DNA from: Pirellula sp.
GTDB lineage: Bacteria > Planctomycetota > Planctomycetia > Pirellulales > Pirellulaceae
Assembly (NCBI GenBank): GCA_025459275.1
Contig: JALOQW010000003.1
Location: forward strand, 1 to 32,419
Direction of reading: 5' to 3'
DNA: 32,419 nt
The notes below the pieces were generated by a model, which worked only from the letters and a program-made list of their open reading frames with translations, had not been told where the DNA came from and searched no databases. How positions within the stretch are numbered: the first letter of the stretch is position 1; each line of letters opens with the position of its first letter. Shown here in pieces: positions 958 through 32,419 of this stretch. The position numbers were made by a program, and so were the translations under genes.

Positions 958-3108
958 CTAACGGCGCGAAGGCATGCCCAGGAATCCGCCGTTGTTCCAG
1001 GGTGCGAAGGGAAGGGCTGACGTGCGCGGGGCTGCGTGGCTTCCATACGTCCACGGACTGCTGAGCATCACGGGTCCTGATTGAGGTTCACGCCAAGAGG
1101 AAGGCACCTGCATACATGAGGCGATCTCCGGCTTTGTGCATGCCTCCCGCAGATGTTCGACAAGGATGCGTCGAACTTCAAGTATAGAACGAGGTGTTGT
1201 ATGGATCGTTGAATGCTGCGCGGCAACGACGATCTCGCTCACCACATCATCCATGTGCGCGCTGTCAACGGTGACGATGCCATCCGAGTCCGGAGATTTG
1301 GACGCAAACCATTGAGACTTCTCCACAATGCCGATGATGTTGTGAAAACGAACCCAAGGAGCACGCCGTGCACGTAGCATCGCAGGGAAAATCGGGGACT
1401 TGGGACTTAGCGAATCAATGCTTGTCGTAGTGGTCAGCAACGCAGTATCTCGAAAGACATCTGGGTTTTGCCGTATGAGCGAATTGCCCAATTCGATCAA
1501 ACTGGCTGGCAGTCGAATGAAGTTGCGAGCAAGCCACTGGGTGTAGTCGTTGGAGTAATCGCTTCCCCGATGAGGAGTACCGATCGTAATCACCCGTTGG
1601 ATCGAAGGATTGGGGTGGAAGAATAAAGCGGCAGCGAGCCGCTCCTTTGTCTCCTCGTCCCCTTTGACTTCGTCAAATGACTTGTCACTGAGAATGCCCC
1701 AGAATTCGTTGCCGCTCTCGATGGTCTGCATGCGTGAGACGAGCCCACCCATCGAATGCCCGACGAGTACCATGTTGTCTAGGACATGATGCTGGAATTG
1801 AGGATCTAGGTCGCGCCGTAGTGACTGCAGGTCAGCTCGCAACTGCGTCGCGCTAACCCAAAACGGTTGTCCGGTTGGATATTGGTAAAACCAGAACTGA
1901 TAGTTCTTTCGAAGTTCACGGAAGGACCTCAGATCGTTGAACATCGGCATCCAAGTCAAGGGACTGGACCACAAACCATGGACCATGACCACAGGGATTC
2001 GCTTTGGATCATACGGTTCCAACATGTAGATCCCCTGAAGTTTCTGAGTCTTGTTCGGATCCAACATGTTGAGTGTGCTGTTGGTTTGCTCCCGGAACTT
2101 GGGGTTGTCGAGGAAGTAAGCCAACGGGGTACTTAAATCGGCTTGAAGCGGTACAAGCCGTGCATTGAGTTCGATATCGGTCGACGCAAGAGGGTCATGC
2201 AGCTCGAGCACGCACGGGTGGCGGTGATGTTGATCCCGGTGGGACTGGAGATTCGGGCTGGTCACTCGTAGCAAAGCCGTAACTGGAAACGAGAGACCTT
2301 CCGGATAGTACTTTTCGCCTGGCTCGTCGGCGGATCGGCGATTGCGCATGGCGATCAGCGGCACACCAACTCCGTAGGTCACATTACTAGCATCGATCCC
2401 CTTGACCTGAAAGTCGCTACTGAACTTGAGATCGCCAAAGTCCTGGTTGGTCCATGGTCCGCGATTCACCACCTGCACGTCGTAATGTGAATCCGAGGTG
2501 CTGATGCGATAGGTGTTTCCCGGCATCAATCGGCCCTCGCGATTGACCAGTCGCAGCATCGCTTCGAGCGACGTGTTGTACAAGTCGCACGCACCGCGAA
2601 ACTGGGGGTCGTAAGGGTTGCGAGAGCAATCGAGTTCAGGGCTGAACAAGTACAGGTAGGCATTGCTCACGGCGACGGTATACATGTCGAGTGCCCCACC
2701 ATATTGGTCGGCATCCTCGAGACGCTTGCCGACGATGTAGGACAGTTCCGAGATCGCGTAGACTTTCTCGGCCCCCTTCTCTTCGAAAGTCAACTCTTGA
2801 AGCTTATCGAGCGCGACCTCGGGAGAGGTTTTGAAGACATCCAGCAGATCATAGTGACGCAGCAGCGAAGAAGTCCGGCTTGTGGGCTGAGGACCATTTC
2901 GGTTCATCAAGCTCAATGCGTCATTGAGCGGATTGATGGGGGTGCGCCGTTCGGTTACGTACCGTTGGCTAGCACACCCGCTGCCGATGGCGAACAAGGC
3001 GCAGAAGCACAAGCACAGGATCCGCCAGCGTCGAATCGCAAAAGCGAATCGTTGTGGTGAATCGAGCTCTTCGAAGGTGTTGGATGTCGGGAAACCGATC
3101 CGGCGCAT
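958..3108 (-). CDS. alpha/beta-hydrolase (lipase/esterase-like) putative lipoprotein
   Basis: VVMVHGLWSSPLTW oxyanion-type motif, GHSMGG nucleophile elbow, TIGTPHRGSDY; N-terminal hydrophobic stretch ending in a lipobox-like GSGC. Confidence 0.8.
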   Translation of the reverse strand: MRRIGFPTSNTFEELDSPQRFAFAIRRWRILCLCFCALFAIGSGCASQRYVTERRTPINPLNDALSLMNRNGPQPTSRTSSLLRHYDLLDVFKTSPEVALDKLQELTFEEKGAEKVYAISELSYIVGKRLEDADQYGGALDMYTVAVSNAYLYLFSPELDCSRNPYDPQFRGACDLYNTSLEAMLRLVNREGRLMPGNTYRISTSDSHYDVQVVNRGPWTNQDFGDLKFSSDFQVKGIDASNVTYGVGVPLIAMRNRRSADEPGEKYYPEGLSFPVTALLRVTSPNLQSHRDQHHRHPCVLELHDPLASTDIELNARLVPLQADLSTPLAYFLDNPKFREQTNSTLNMLDPNKTQKLQGIYMLEPYDPKRIPVVMVHGLWSSPLTWMPMFNDLRSFRELRKNYQFWFYQYPTGQPFWVSATQLRADLQSLRRDLDPQFQHHVLDNMVLVGHSMGGLVSRMQTIESGNEFWGILSDKSFDEVKGDEETKERLAAALFFHPNPSIQRVITIGTPHRGSDYSNDYTQWLARNFIRLPASLIELGNSLIRQNPDVFRDTALLTTTTSIDSLSPKSPIFPAMLRARRAPWVRFHNIIGIVEKSQWFASKSPDSDGIVTVDSAHMDDVVSEIVVAAQHSTIHTTPRSILEVRRILVEHLREACTKPEIASCMQVPSSWREPQSGPVMLSSPWTYGSHAAPRTSALPFAPWNNGGFLGMPSRR

Positions 3109-26760: not shown

Positions 26761-28134
26761 CTAGCCGATACCGAATCCAGGCCGATACTCCTTGGTTAAC
26801 ATCGCGATCGCTTCGGCCGGGCCTTGCAAACGAAATGCCTCCGTGTCCCAGGTCAAGGTCTTGCCCGGAACCCGCGCGGCGATGTTGCCAAGCTGAACTG
26901 CTTCGGTCAAAGGCCCAGCATACTCAAAGCCATCGGTCGTCTTTTTACGATTGATCACCGCATCCACCCAGTCATGCCAGTGATTGGTCCCGAGACCGGT
27001 GTGAACCTGGTGGGTTACGTAATCTCCTTCCCGATACCACCTCGGTTCTCCCACATGCGGCAATACCAAGAAGAATCCATTTTCGTAAAGGAATAGTGAG
27101 CCGGCCCCGGGCAATTCGACCCCCGGCGGAAGTTTTGCCAGCCCGGCCGGCGGTTTGCGTCCCCCGTCGTACCATGTGACCTTCAGTTCCTTGTCGACGG
27201 TGTACTGAGTTCCAGGAAACATATACGTGATCGTCTCCGGTCCCGGCCAAACTTCGCGTGTGGTTCCCTCGTTCTCGGCGACGATCCGAGTCGGGGCCGT
27301 CAACTGCAACGCGGTAAAAACGGGATCGAGGATGTGACAACCAAAATCCCCCAAGGCACCGGAACCAAAATCCTGCCAATCCCGCCATTTGAAAGGGTGA
27401 TAGACATCCGCAGCAAACGGTCGCCATGGCGCTGCCCCTAACCATAGATCCCAATGCACGCTAGCGGGCACAGATGCTTCCGAAGGGCGATCGGTACGGT
27501 TGCAGTATTGTCGACCTTGCACACCGACCCACGAGTGAACTTCGATTACCTTTCCCCCTACGTCTCGTCTATCCTGAATCATCTTCACAGCAGCGCGGTA
27601 CTCGTTCGCTGAATGGATCTGGTTCCCCATTTGCGTGGTCAGATCTTTCTTAGTAGCCAGCAGTCGCATTTGCCGTGCTTCCCAGACCGTATGCGTTAAC
27701 GGCTTTTGGCAATAGATATGCTTCCCCATGTTCATGGCCATCATGGCGATGGGAGCATGCATGTGATCGGGAGTGGAAACGACGACTGCATCGACGCGAT
27801 CTCCCAACTCCGTCAGCATTTCGCGGTAATCGAAGAAATGCTTCACACCCGGATAAGCTTTATCGACTTCGTTGAAACGAGACTCATCGATGTCGCAGAA
27901 GCCGACGAATTTCACTTTCGAGTGCGAACCAATGGCGGAGATATCCGACCAGCCCATGCCATTGCACCCGACTCCGGCCACATGCAGTTCCTGGTCACGA
28001 TGCTTCGCCCGCAGGATGCCTGGAACTCCTAACACAGCTGCCCCCGCAGCCGCTGATCGCCCGATCCATGTTCGCCGATCCCAATTCACCGTATTTTTCA
28101 TGCTCATGGTCTCCTTGCATCGATTGTCGCTCAT
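26761..28134 (-). CDS. Gfo/Idh/MocA family oxidoreductase with Tat-like signal
   Basis: RRTWIGRSAAAGAAVLG twin-arginine start; VAGVGCNGMG, VDAVVVSTPDHMHAPIAMMAMNMGKHIYCQKPLTHTVWEAR. Confidence 0.92.
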   Translation of the reverse strand: MSDNRCKETMSMKNTVNWDRRTWIGRSAAAGAAVLGVPGILRAKHRDQELHVAGVGCNGMGWSDISAIGSHSKVKFVGFCDIDESRFNEVDKAYPGVKHFFDYREMLTELGDRVDAVVVSTPDHMHAPIAMMAMNMGKHIYCQKPLTHTVWEARQMRLLATKKDLTTQMGNQIHSANEYRAAVKMIQDRRDVGGKVIEVHSWVGVQGRQYCNRTDRPSEASVPASVHWDLWLGAAPWRPFAADVYHPFKWRDWQDFGSGALGDFGCHILDPVFTALQLTAPTRIVAENEGTTREVWPGPETITYMFPGTQYTVDKELKVTWYDGGRKPPAGLAKLPPGVELPGAGSLFLYENGFFLVLPHVGEPRWYREGDYVTHQVHTGLGTNHWHDWVDAVINRKKTTDGFEYAGPLTEAVQLGNIAARVPGKTLTWDTEAFRLQGPAEAIAMLTKEYRPGFGIG

Positions 28135-29321
28135 CGGACAGAAGTCAGCAAATGAAATTGCATCAATTGCCCCATGTGCAGTTCGTCCAAGACGGATAGT
28201 CGCATCTCAGCGATCTGGTTACCCGCTGCGCGTCGTGACTCTTGATCCTGCTCGATGGCTCTTCGAAGATGACTCGGCGCGGTATCCGTGCCATCCAGAA
28301 AGATCGGATCAAACCGGGGCTGCTCGACGACGATATCCCATTCCTTTTTCAGTCGCGGACGATCCACCGATTGGGCATTCGGGTCGCTATGGTCGTTGGC
28401 AAGCGAATCGACAGATTCCATCCATCGAACCCACGATTCCAATCCTGAGTTCCAGACTCGGCATGCAACGTGTGTGGGTGGGTTGGGCTTCTCTCCGTCT
28501 CGCCATCGAAGGTAGCGTGTTACAAGATCGGGCTCAGAAGTCGTTTCAGTCATTTGTTCCGACATCCATGCTGCGCCGGCGGTTAGCTCCATCACATTGA
28601 TTCCTAAGAGTGTCGCTGGCAACAATCCTAATGGAGCGAAACATTGCAAGGGTGAGGGCTCGCCTGATGCTTCAAAAAGATCCTTCACCCCCATGGCCTC
28701 GAGCTGATTCCTCAACGGTCCTTCGCCAGGAACAACGCCCATCAGGCGTTGGGAGATGGTCGCCGCATCTTGATCGACGTGAGTTTGCAATGCTTGAAGG
28801 AGCGGCTTGAGTTGCCAAAACAAGTCCGGTGTTGGATCAGAGGAAGGTGCCAGGATCAATAACGCCCAACGATCAAGATCAGTAACCTTAGAGGTTTGCC
28901 GATTCGTTCCCAGGATGTGAAGCAGGCCTTGAAGCTCATCATTGTCGCAGTTGGACGCGATGAAGAACATGCGAGGCTTGCTGCCTCGATCCGCGCGTGA
29001 CAGAAGGTTCCAATAGGGCTGACAGCAGGCCTGCATGAAGGCTTGTGCTCCCAAGCCAGAGTCGCGTTGACATAGGACGACCACATTATCGACGCAGGTC
29101 TGGATTCGATTGGCCACATGAAACATCTGAGCCAGTGCGCTGTGGCGACGATCTTGTGAATAGGCTTTGAGCATCGCCCCGGGGCGTGACGCGAAATGGC
29201 GATCGCCGAGCGAGATCAGCGATCGGTACCATTCGCTTCGCACCGATGCGTTGGTGCGATTTGGGGGCTCACGATCCAGAGAGAGACGAAGCGGCTGTAG
29301 AACATTCCTCCGTAATTTCAT
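28131..29321 (-). CDS. glucose-6-phosphate isomerase-like protein, apparently lacking catalytic/ligand motifs
   Basis: NVVVLCQRDSGLGAQAFMQACCQPYWNLLSRADRGSKPRMFFIASNCDNDELQGLLHIL; FAPLGLLPATLLGINVMELTAGAAWM; LDELHMGQLMQFHLL, all collinear with bacterial GPI signature regions. Confidence 0.65.
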   Translation of the reverse strand: MKLRRNVLQPLRLSLDREPPNRTNASVRSEWYRSLISLGDRHFASRPGAMLKAYSQDRRHSALAQMFHVANRIQTCVDNVVVLCQRDSGLGAQAFMQACCQPYWNLLSRADRGSKPRMFFIASNCDNDELQGLLHILGTNRQTSKVTDLDRWALLILAPSSDPTPDLFWQLKPLLQALQTHVDQDAATISQRLMGVVPGEGPLRNQLEAMGVKDLFEASGEPSPLQCFAPLGLLPATLLGINVMELTAGAAWMSEQMTETTSEPDLVTRYLRWRDGEKPNPPTHVACRVWNSGLESWVRWMESVDSLANDHSDPNAQSVDRPRLKKEWDIVVEQPRFDPIFLDGTDTAPSHLRRAIEQDQESRRAAGNQIAEMRLSVLDELHMGQLMQFHLLTSVR

Positions 29322-29341: not shown

Positions 29342-30535
29342 TCAATCCACCAACGATTTCTTGTAGGCGTCTGCGATCGATTCATCGAGCCCAACGGTCC
29401 ATCGTTTTCCATCGGTCTCGAGTTCGACGAAATCAGGACGGACTTCGATGACCTTGCCAATGACATCTCCCAATTTGAGTTCGTCCCCTTTACGCAGGTA
29501 AATAGTCTTGCCTTCGGTCTTGGACCGAACCCATGCAGCCGGACCTTTTGTATCGGCAATCAATGCCGTCAGATAAGCTTGGGATGCGATATCAAACTTG
29601 GGCGGTTCTTTGGCTGGCGGTGGCGGCTCCGCGACGCGAATGGAAACCATTTGAACGGAGGAACGAGAGGGGATACCGGAGTCGGAAGCTCGAACGGCGA
29701 CTTTGAACTCCCCGAGTTCGTTCGAGGTCCATGTCAATTTTCCAGACTGCGGGTCGATTTCCATTCCCTTCGGTGCTTCGCCTTCGATGGCATAAGTCAC
29801 GGTCTGTCCTGGATCGCTTTCCTTAGCTTCGATACCCACATCCATCCGAATGCCGACGGTCGCATCGACGCGACGTGTCGATGCGAGGACTGGCGGCTGG
29901 TTGGTGGGAGCAAAAATATTGCGACCGGCGATGGTAGCGAGATACTCGTCCAATGGTTTGCTGATGCGAGGCGAATTGTTGCCCGGAGGTGGTTGATTGG
30001 GTTTCGCCGACTTCATGGCCAACACTTCAATATCCAACACAATGTTCATGCGATTGGGGGGATTGCTGTTGGTGATGGGGCGCAAGTCGAATCGCTGGAC
30101 GCGATGCAAGTAATCTTTGGCTTGAAACGCATAAAGCAAGCTCGTTGCATTCTCAATGGTTCCGATCCCTGAAAGCTGGAACTTGAAAGACTGATAAAGG
30201 TCACCTTCGGTACTGCTTCCCAAAGCCCGAGGCTGCGGGTCAACCAGCTTGGCTTCTTCGGCGAGCGCGATCAACCATTCCATGTACTCCGCTTGGGCGC
30301 GTTCTTCGTTGCTGGGTAGCGAGCTGGGCAGGATCCGATTCATCTTGGCTTTGGCGATGGTGCCAGCAACGATTTGCAGTGCCTTGTCTTCTTTTTCCTT
30401 TTGCAAAGCAGCAATCGTTTCCAGTTTGGCATCGAATGCTTTCCGAATCGTGCCCCAGAAATAGTTTCCGAGCAGGAGGATTACCACCAATCCGACGCCA
30501 CCTGCCAATAGCTTTTCTCGTTGACTCAGGTTCAT
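29342..30535 (-). CDS. PilO/GspM-like inner-membrane protein with Ig/cadherin-like insert and C-terminal PilP/GspC-like domain
   Basis: N-terminal TM + coiled coil; EIDPQSGKLTWTSNELGEFKVAVRASD (putative-Ig/cadherin-like); AAWVRSKTEGKTIYLRKGDELKLGDVIGKVIEVRPDFVELETDGKRWTVGL (GspC/PilP HR-like). Confidence 0.6.
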   Translation of the reverse strand: MNLSQREKLLAGGVGLVVILLLGNYFWGTIRKAFDAKLETIAALQKEKEDKALQIVAGTIAKAKMNRILPSSLPSNEERAQAEYMEWLIALAEEAKLVDPQPRALGSSTEGDLYQSFKFQLSGIGTIENATSLLYAFQAKDYLHRVQRFDLRPITNSNPPNRMNIVLDIEVLAMKSAKPNQPPPGNNSPRISKPLDEYLATIAGRNIFAPTNQPPVLASTRRVDATVGIRMDVGIEAKESDPGQTVTYAIEGEAPKGMEIDPQSGKLTWTSNELGEFKVAVRASDSGIPSRSSVQMVSIRVAEPPPPAKEPPKFDIASQAYLTALIADTKGPAAWVRSKTEGKTIYLRKGDELKLGDVIGKVIEVRPDFVELETDGKRWTVGLDESIADAYKKSLVD

Positions 30536-31488
30536 GATGCGTCTCCAGTAGCTACCGACTCCGATTCGGTTTTCGCAGAGGGGGCAGGTGGTTCGGCAGG
30601 AGTTATAGCAGGAGTTATGACAGGAGGCTCAGCAACTGGTTCCTGGATGGTTGGGGATTCCTGTTTCTCGCCAGTTTCAGGTGCATTGCTCACTTCTGCA
30701 GAAGCGGGGCTGGCTTCATTTTCTGTGGGCTTGGCGGCCTCTTCCTTTTTCGCGTCGACTGCGGGTGCGGCTTTCTTGACATTGCGTGGATCCGGGACCT
30801 CGCCTGGAGCCAATGCGATGGTCAAGTCGGAGGCCCACGGATAGTTCTTGTCTGGGCTTTGGGTGACAGCGGTTCCTTTCACCGTGTGTGCCGAGTCGCG
30901 GTATGCGGCTTGCACTTCAGGAACCACATCCTGCAATTTGGCGAAATATTTGGCAGAGATCGACGCAGCATTCGTTCGGGGCTCGATCATGAAGGTTGTT
31001 GTGCCGAAGTATGCCCGATCCGATCCCTTGGCATTCATCGAAAGTCTTTCGAGTTCATCCAACCAGCGGACGTCCCCTCGAAGAAAGTTCTCGATCTTCT
31101 TCCAATCAGCGGCATGTTTGTTGGCAGCTTTCAAGGTCCCGGCTTCGTTGTTGATGGTTTCGCGAAGCAGGGCTATTTCATTATCGAGCGCTGAGTGGCT
31201 GGAATAATACCACCACCATCCTCCGGCCAAGGTTGCGATTCCCAAGGCTGCAGCAGCCACGTAACGAGCGATCGGTTTCTTCTTTTCGACGCGCTTTCTC
31301 GGGTTGGCGAAGTCGATCAGTCGATTTCGATGTTGCAAGAAGTGAAACGCCCCGAGGACGGGTGCGAAACGACCAACGGTTTGCGTGGTCGCTGCGATGG
31401 CCACCGTTGCCTTCTCAGCCCAAGCGAAGGGATCCAGCATGGTGACAGGGAGCTCAAGCGATTGGCTCAACGACTCAGCTACCGGAGC
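30532..31488 (-). CDS. PilM C-terminal/PilN-like (GspL-like) protein, 5' end replaced at an apparent junction
   Basis: VAESLSQSLELPVTMLDPFAW...FAPVLGAFHFLQHRNRLIDFANPRKR (PilM-end-like) then TM and coiled coil; upstream codons are compositionally foreign. Confidence 0.65.
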   Translation of the reverse strand, partial: APVAESLSQSLELPVTMLDPFAWAEKATVAIAATTQTVGRFAPVLGAFHFLQHRNRLIDFANPRKRVEKKKPIARYVAAAALGIATLAGGWWWYYSSHSALDNEIALLRETINNEAGTLKAANKHAADWKKIENFLRGDVRWLDELERLSMNAKGSDRAYFGTTTFMIEPRTNAASISAKYFAKLQDVVPEVQAAYRDSAHTVKGTAVTQSPDKNYPWASDLTIALAPGEVPDPRNVKKAAPAVDAKKEEAAKPTENEASPASAEVSNAPETGEKQESPTIQEPVAEPPVITPAITPAEPPAPSAKTESESVATGDAS

Positions 31489-31686
31489 CATTGAATATTT
31501 GCCATAAGGAAATAAATATTCGCCCGTTGCGTCGCTGTAAATTTTCTTTTTTACGATTTCAGATTTTGAAAGCTCCAATGTGGCAAAATTGCCTTTTCTT
31601 TCAATTACCTTAATTGTAGGTCTCAGGTCATAATCTGAAATAAATCTGACTTGCAGTGTTGATCCGGTTTTGATTGTGTTTTGCAT
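31489..31686 (-). CDS. N-terminal fragment of a small Bacteroidetes-like protein, fused in frame to the PilM/N-like gene
   Basis: MQNTIKTGSTLQVRFISDYDLRPTIKVIERKGNFATLELSKSEIVKKKIYSDATGEYLFPYGKYSM; AT-rich codons contrasting with the downstream part. Confidence 0.5.
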
Positions 31687-31888
31687 TGCTGATTGATTTG
31701 ATAGTGTAAAGATATATATATTTATCAATACGCTGTATCTATTTATCAAGCATTTTGATATATATTTTTTCTAATAAAGTATAATTGCCTGATTTTCAGC
31801 ACACATTAAAAAAATAAAAATTTGTTTTTGATAGTTAACCCTTACTTATAGGCATGACGGGCTCTATATCCTCCAAACAAGGGACATT

Positions 31889-31941
31889 ATTGAGACCTTT
31901 ATAAACAAAAGATAGTATTCATCATACTAAAAAGTCTCAAT
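31889..31941. repeat. nested inverted repeat in AT-rich tail
   Basis: ATTGAGAC (31889-31896) / GTCTCAAT (31934-31941) enclosing TAGTAT-tcatc-ATACTA (31913-31929). Confidence 0.6.
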
Positions 31942-32190
31942 TCGCAAATTTTAAAACCGGCCAAGGTGAACTCCGGCTGCTCATTACTGCCACGCTTTCA
32001 GGTAATTATAAAACTTTTTGTTTGGAGTCAGGTGTTGTTAGCCCGTGAAACATTGCACCCACTTTTGAAGCGTGTAAAATCTACGTTATCCGGATTGAAT
32101 ACATGGCGCAACCGGAAACGCCCCCGACTTATTAAAATGCGCTCTTTTGACACATCCCGGAAAAGTCAGTAAACAAACCGGGGCAAAGAT

Positions 32191-32221
32191 AAATAAAAAA
32201 GCCGAAGATTTTACCTCCGGC
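32191..32221 (-). terminator. intrinsic terminator, minus strand
   Basis: Minus-strand reading GCCGGAG-GTAAAAT-CTTCGGC (one G-T pair) followed by TTTTTTATTT. Confidence 0.7.
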
Positions 32222-32419
32222 CTAAAGTGGTTTGTCGTTCGGGCTAAAAAAAGACAGGGCAAAGTTATATTTATTTTTCAAATAGCATACAAAAAAATGG
32301 ACACGACTCGCAATCGCATCCATTTAAAAAATTTTGCTAAAACAAAAGTACATCACAAAGATATACATATTTTTTAAATCCAAACTTTTTAAATAAAAAA
32401 AAGTACCCCCTAAGTTTGC

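Follow-up and report, generated by a model that had tools for sequence, protein, structure and literature searches.

That contig ends can carry chimeric sequence is a known fault of assembly (PMC8172020), and misassembly has been treated further elsewhere (PMC8201837). In flavobacteria, sigma-A promoters have TAnnTTTG as their -7 box (PMC9723704). The window analysed here is the whole of contig C450 (G000:C450; 32,419 b), so that the anomaly we describe lies at a contig end, and it comes from an assembly of 544 contigs with 80.4% completeness and 1.36% contamination. An earlier note on this DNA had offered a chimeric metagenomic contig join as the simplest explanation for an ORF that changes character midway, and this is the reading supported by our finding of the gene's N-terminus on another contig (C62), of unfused relatives and of a separate phage protein. 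From these comparisons, we are highly confident that C450 is chimeric and that the fusion join would be an artefact of sequencing or assembly.

Compositional break at the contig end

Fitting a two-segment maximum-likelihood GC model to C450, we placed the change point at 31,489 (log-likelihood gain 83), with GC at 55.3% left of the break and 34.1% in the final 928 b, in agreement with the GC-rich to AT-rich break previously put at ~31,490. As a control, we sampled 100 other contigs of the same genome and excluded 8 that read as N; across the 92 readable ones (with contigs >20 kb covered up to 20 kb) the best gain was at most 12.2, making the C450 break unique among the 93 contigs sampled. Native windows of 928 b had a minimum GC of 48% (n = 8,329 overlapping sampled windows), all of them above the tail at 34%, and the tetranucleotide distance of the tail was 0.84 versus 0.31 ± 0.03 (maximum 0.43) for native windows of equal length. 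Taken with the separate protein homologues of the two sides, these measures point to two origins, as had been claimed when the left side was called planctomycete-like and the right side foreign. The features concerned are as follows.

29342–30535, minus strand: next operon gene, GspM/PilO-like by position; same place in 17 related loci; He_PIG match, E = 2e-8
30532–31476, minus strand: C-terminal part (PilM-end plus PilN-like) of the putative GspL-like gene, truncated at the very probably false join; 51–62% identity to the C-terminal half of the closest relatives' intact gene
31477–31491, minus strand: join zone ATG GCT CCG GTA GCT (MAPVA); native and phage gene families encode the motif alike
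31477–31686, minus strand: small phage-type gene (MQNTIKTG...GEYLFPYGKYSMAPVA), complete but for its final codons and stop, which the join removed; 41–53% identity, 25 IMG/VR contigs
31492–32419, no strand assigned: AT-rich tail of foreign origin (928 b), reaching the contig end; 34.1% versus 55.3% GC, tetranucleotide outlier
32260–32293, minus strand: second match to the same Bacteroidota promoter pattern, by pattern search
32356–32384, minus strand: match to the Bacteroidota promoter pattern TTTG-N17-23-TANNTTTG, by pattern search

The native gene and its missing N-terminus

The ORF at 30,532–31,749 (minus strand, 405 aa) spans the break in one open frame, and the shared motif codons at residues 87–91 agree with the 87-codon split that had been reported for it. 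Comparing the two halves of the protein separately, as the earlier note had proposed, we found that each matches its own distinct homologues, while scans of genome contigs returned no close relative of either half of the fusion. Translated between 31,491 and 30,532, the native part corresponds to the C-terminal half of a gene present in 50 of the 60 genomes searched (own genome included); identity is 51–62% in the closest relatives, where the intact gene has open frames of mostly 570–680 aa. The N-terminal half of this gene, evaluated on C62 and in relatives, is weakly but consistently PilM-like (TIGR01175, E = 2e-5; PDB 3jc8 by profile, E = 4e-4; PDB 2ych also by profile). Searching for a curated GspL model, we saw no Pfam or NCBIfam model reach its cut-off, and no Pfam family covers the whole protein. 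Given its PilM-like plus PilN-like architecture and its gene order, the native gene is best called GspL-like, in a T2SS-type operon; the PilM-end/PilN-like layout that had been read in the C-terminal part is thereby kept and refined to a GspL-like protein encoded directly after gspK.

Querying the window's own genome with the intact homologue of a relative (G007; L010), we recovered the native PilM-like N-terminus, rightly noted earlier as absent from the ORF, at positions 2–637 of C62 (minus strand; 211 residues, 75% identical to the G007 homologue), where it runs into the contig end. The gap from C62 to C450 amounts to 38 residues in the alignment, and 38 residues stand there in all 19 aligned relatives. 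Upstream on C62 are gspE, F, G and K by family match, with prepilin-like ORFs between them in the places of gspH, I and J. The order of genes continues across the gap, in that gspK directly precedes the gene on C62 and in 18 related loci, and the gene that comes next on C450 (29,342–30,535) directly follows the same gene in 17 related loci, contig ends cutting two of these 17. In relatives the gsp gene order is uninterrupted, and related genomes carry the gene unfused. The N-terminus on C62, the matching 38-residue gap and the operon order together indicate that C62 and C450 are most simply neighbouring pieces of one T2SS-type operon, with ~115 unassembled bases between them.

These observations bear on a real insertion or microhomology-mediated recombination that put phage-derived DNA into this strain's gspL-like gene and separated its N-terminal part, an event that we regard as very unlikely. 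The end of C62 is purely native sequence that stops 38 codons before the site and has no foreign tail, and none of the 19 aligned relatives has the same junction; the genome is a draft, however, and a second junction could lie within the 115 unassembled bases. The earlier note had named related genomes with the same fused gene as evidence that would overturn a chimeric join, and we found none, the 19 aligned relatives being native through the site.

Several further observations were made on these loci. The GspM-like gene at 29342–30535 (minus strand) holds an Ig-like He_PIG domain (E = 2e-8) within an apparent secretion-system subunit, and the genome's own gspK (C62 640–3339, minus strand; L084) contains, mid-gene, a glycine-rich insertion about 200 residues long. 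Contig C295 carries a second, more canonical PilM gene at 1378–2190 (plus strand; L029; PilM_2, E = 7e-10), cut by the contig end, which we considered as the missing piece and rejected as a different PilM-like gene. Within the window, 28131–29321 (minus strand) encodes a protein that lacks any Pfam domain and resembles glucose-6-phosphate isomerase only in part and weakly (PRK14097, E = 4e-7, far below cut-off).

A phage-type gene in the foreign tail

On the other side of the break, residues 22–90 of the fusion (from the ATG at 31,686) match proteins of 25 IMG/VR contigs at 41–53% identity. Because these phage homologues align from about there, the true start of the small protein is probably this ATG rather than the TTG at 31,749. 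The closest homologues are 73 aa long and end in EYVFPYGKYSMAPIAY, a few residues past the motif, and in the closest phage group the small gene sits among portal, endolysin, holin, Gam-like and Erf genes. The first ~87 codons of the ORF had been taken as the start of an unrelated small protein; unrelated they are, but what is present is nearly all of a 73-aa phage-type protein rather than only its start. Proteins of this kind (L032–L056; 65–73 residues, conserved ending YSM(A/C)P(I/V)) are common in IMG/VR contigs.

No Pfam or PHROGs family matched the small protein in the two members tested, and Pfam, PHROGs and Rfam gave no family for the tail (Rfam matches were far below gathering scores). 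In blastn searches of phage and plasmid sequences the tail had short AT-rich matches only, and tblastn of the small protein gave no plasmid match and weak phage matches, the best being Butyrivibrio virus Arian (39% identity, E = 1e-4). Outside the small gene, the tail shows no sizeable ORF that has a homologue. The exact parent was not found in the phage, plasmid or IMG/VR searches, where the nearest relative is 53% identical.

The promoter pattern TTTG-N17-23-TANNTTTG matches twice in the tail, upstream of the small gene and on its strand, and not once in the 31.5 kb of native DNA, with 0.055 matches expected in mononucleotide shuffles of the tail. The tail derives from another organism, and its likely source is phage or prophage DNA from a Bacteroidota-like host. 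The motifs agree with the earlier description of this DNA as Bacteroidetes-like; the phage-type gene shifts its source from a plain chromosome to what may be a phage or prophage. For recombination into the gspL-like gene, promoter motifs and composition that correspond to those of another phylum count against it, as does the lack of any integrase or transposase among the ORFs of the 928 b, although a longer insert could carry one.

The join zone

The MAPVA codons lie at 31,491–31,477, and the motif MAP(V/I)A is read by both parent proteins exactly at the join (DAMAPVAEAL in the native G007 homologue, YSMAPIAY in the phage protein). Pairing all five-residue windows of a native relative with those of a phage relative, we found that only 1 of 41,883 pairs had at least 4 identities, namely the join motif. 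Left of the motif the window DNA is identical to the phage at 32 of 45 positions and to the native gene at 18, and right of it to the native gene at 17 of 30 and to the phage at 7. With similarity switching from phage to native in this way, the crossover is placed within or beside 31,477–31,491. Since the sole near-match among 41,883 pairings sits at the join, it was probably this short stretch in common that brought the two DNAs together and preserved the reading frame, the 405 codons staying open as both parents carry the motif in the same frame.

That single open frame is what would speak for a genuine expressed fusion, a new architecture joining a small phage protein to the C-terminal part of GspL, to which we give next to no credence. 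The shared motif, in the same frame in both genes, accounts for the open frame; the phage homologues end a few residues past the motif; and the N-terminal half of the native gene is present on C62. No fused homologue was found in the 60-genome search of relatives (own genome included) or in the collections scanned. The caution voiced earlier against annotating the fusion as a novel architecture is upheld, the parts being of separate origin. An in-frame join at a short shared motif is also what illegitimate recombination uses, and a phage segment could in that way have entered the gspL-like gene at 15–20 nt of shared sequence, inactivating the secretion system; we see only a very slim chance of this.

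Under a chimeric contig, native DNA would run to ~31,491 and end inside the GspL-like gene, with the last 928 b coming from another organism, and the two DNAs would have been joined where both genes encode MAP(V/I)A. Native and phage nucleotides may have been identical over ~15 nt, and perhaps up to 20 if ATTCA closes the native codons before it (KDS is encoded at that place in most close relatives), and we infer that this identity guided the join. Such ~15–20 nt would be enough for a false assembler overlap or for template switching while the library was made. Since common assemblers use no k smaller than this, a chimeric molecule is as possible as a graph error.

Implications for annotation

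The fusion is almost certainly no real feature, and there is nothing new to annotate. We recommend cutting C450 back to about 31,491 and deleting the fusion ORF, so that neither a spurious fusion nor a supposedly 'decapitated' secretion gene enters the annotation. The case also shows that two parents sharing a motif by chance can produce an in-frame chimera which ORF-based checks let through. For the draft genome, C62 and C450 are indicated as neighbours in one T2SS-type operon.

Comparison with known systems

Compared with GspL-like proteins of T2SS-type operons, the native gene is alike in its PilM-like N-terminal half and in its place after gspK and, in related genomes, before a gspM-like gene; it differs in scores that are far below curated cut-offs and in having no whole-protein Pfam match. 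The small gene is closest to a 73-aa tailed-phage protein of uncharacterised IMG/VR contigs (e.g., IMGVR_UViG_3300044695_002636; 53% identity over query residues 4–69), with which it has the ending KYSMAP(I/V)A in common, but on C450 the native gene stands in place of the final codons and stop, and the 740 b upstream of it resemble IMG/VR contigs only in short matches. As in other chimeric contigs of metagenome-assembled genomes, composition and lineage change abruptly at a contig end and the true continuation lies on another contig of the bin, whereas the C450 join differs from these in keeping an open frame, and so looks like a real fusion gene.
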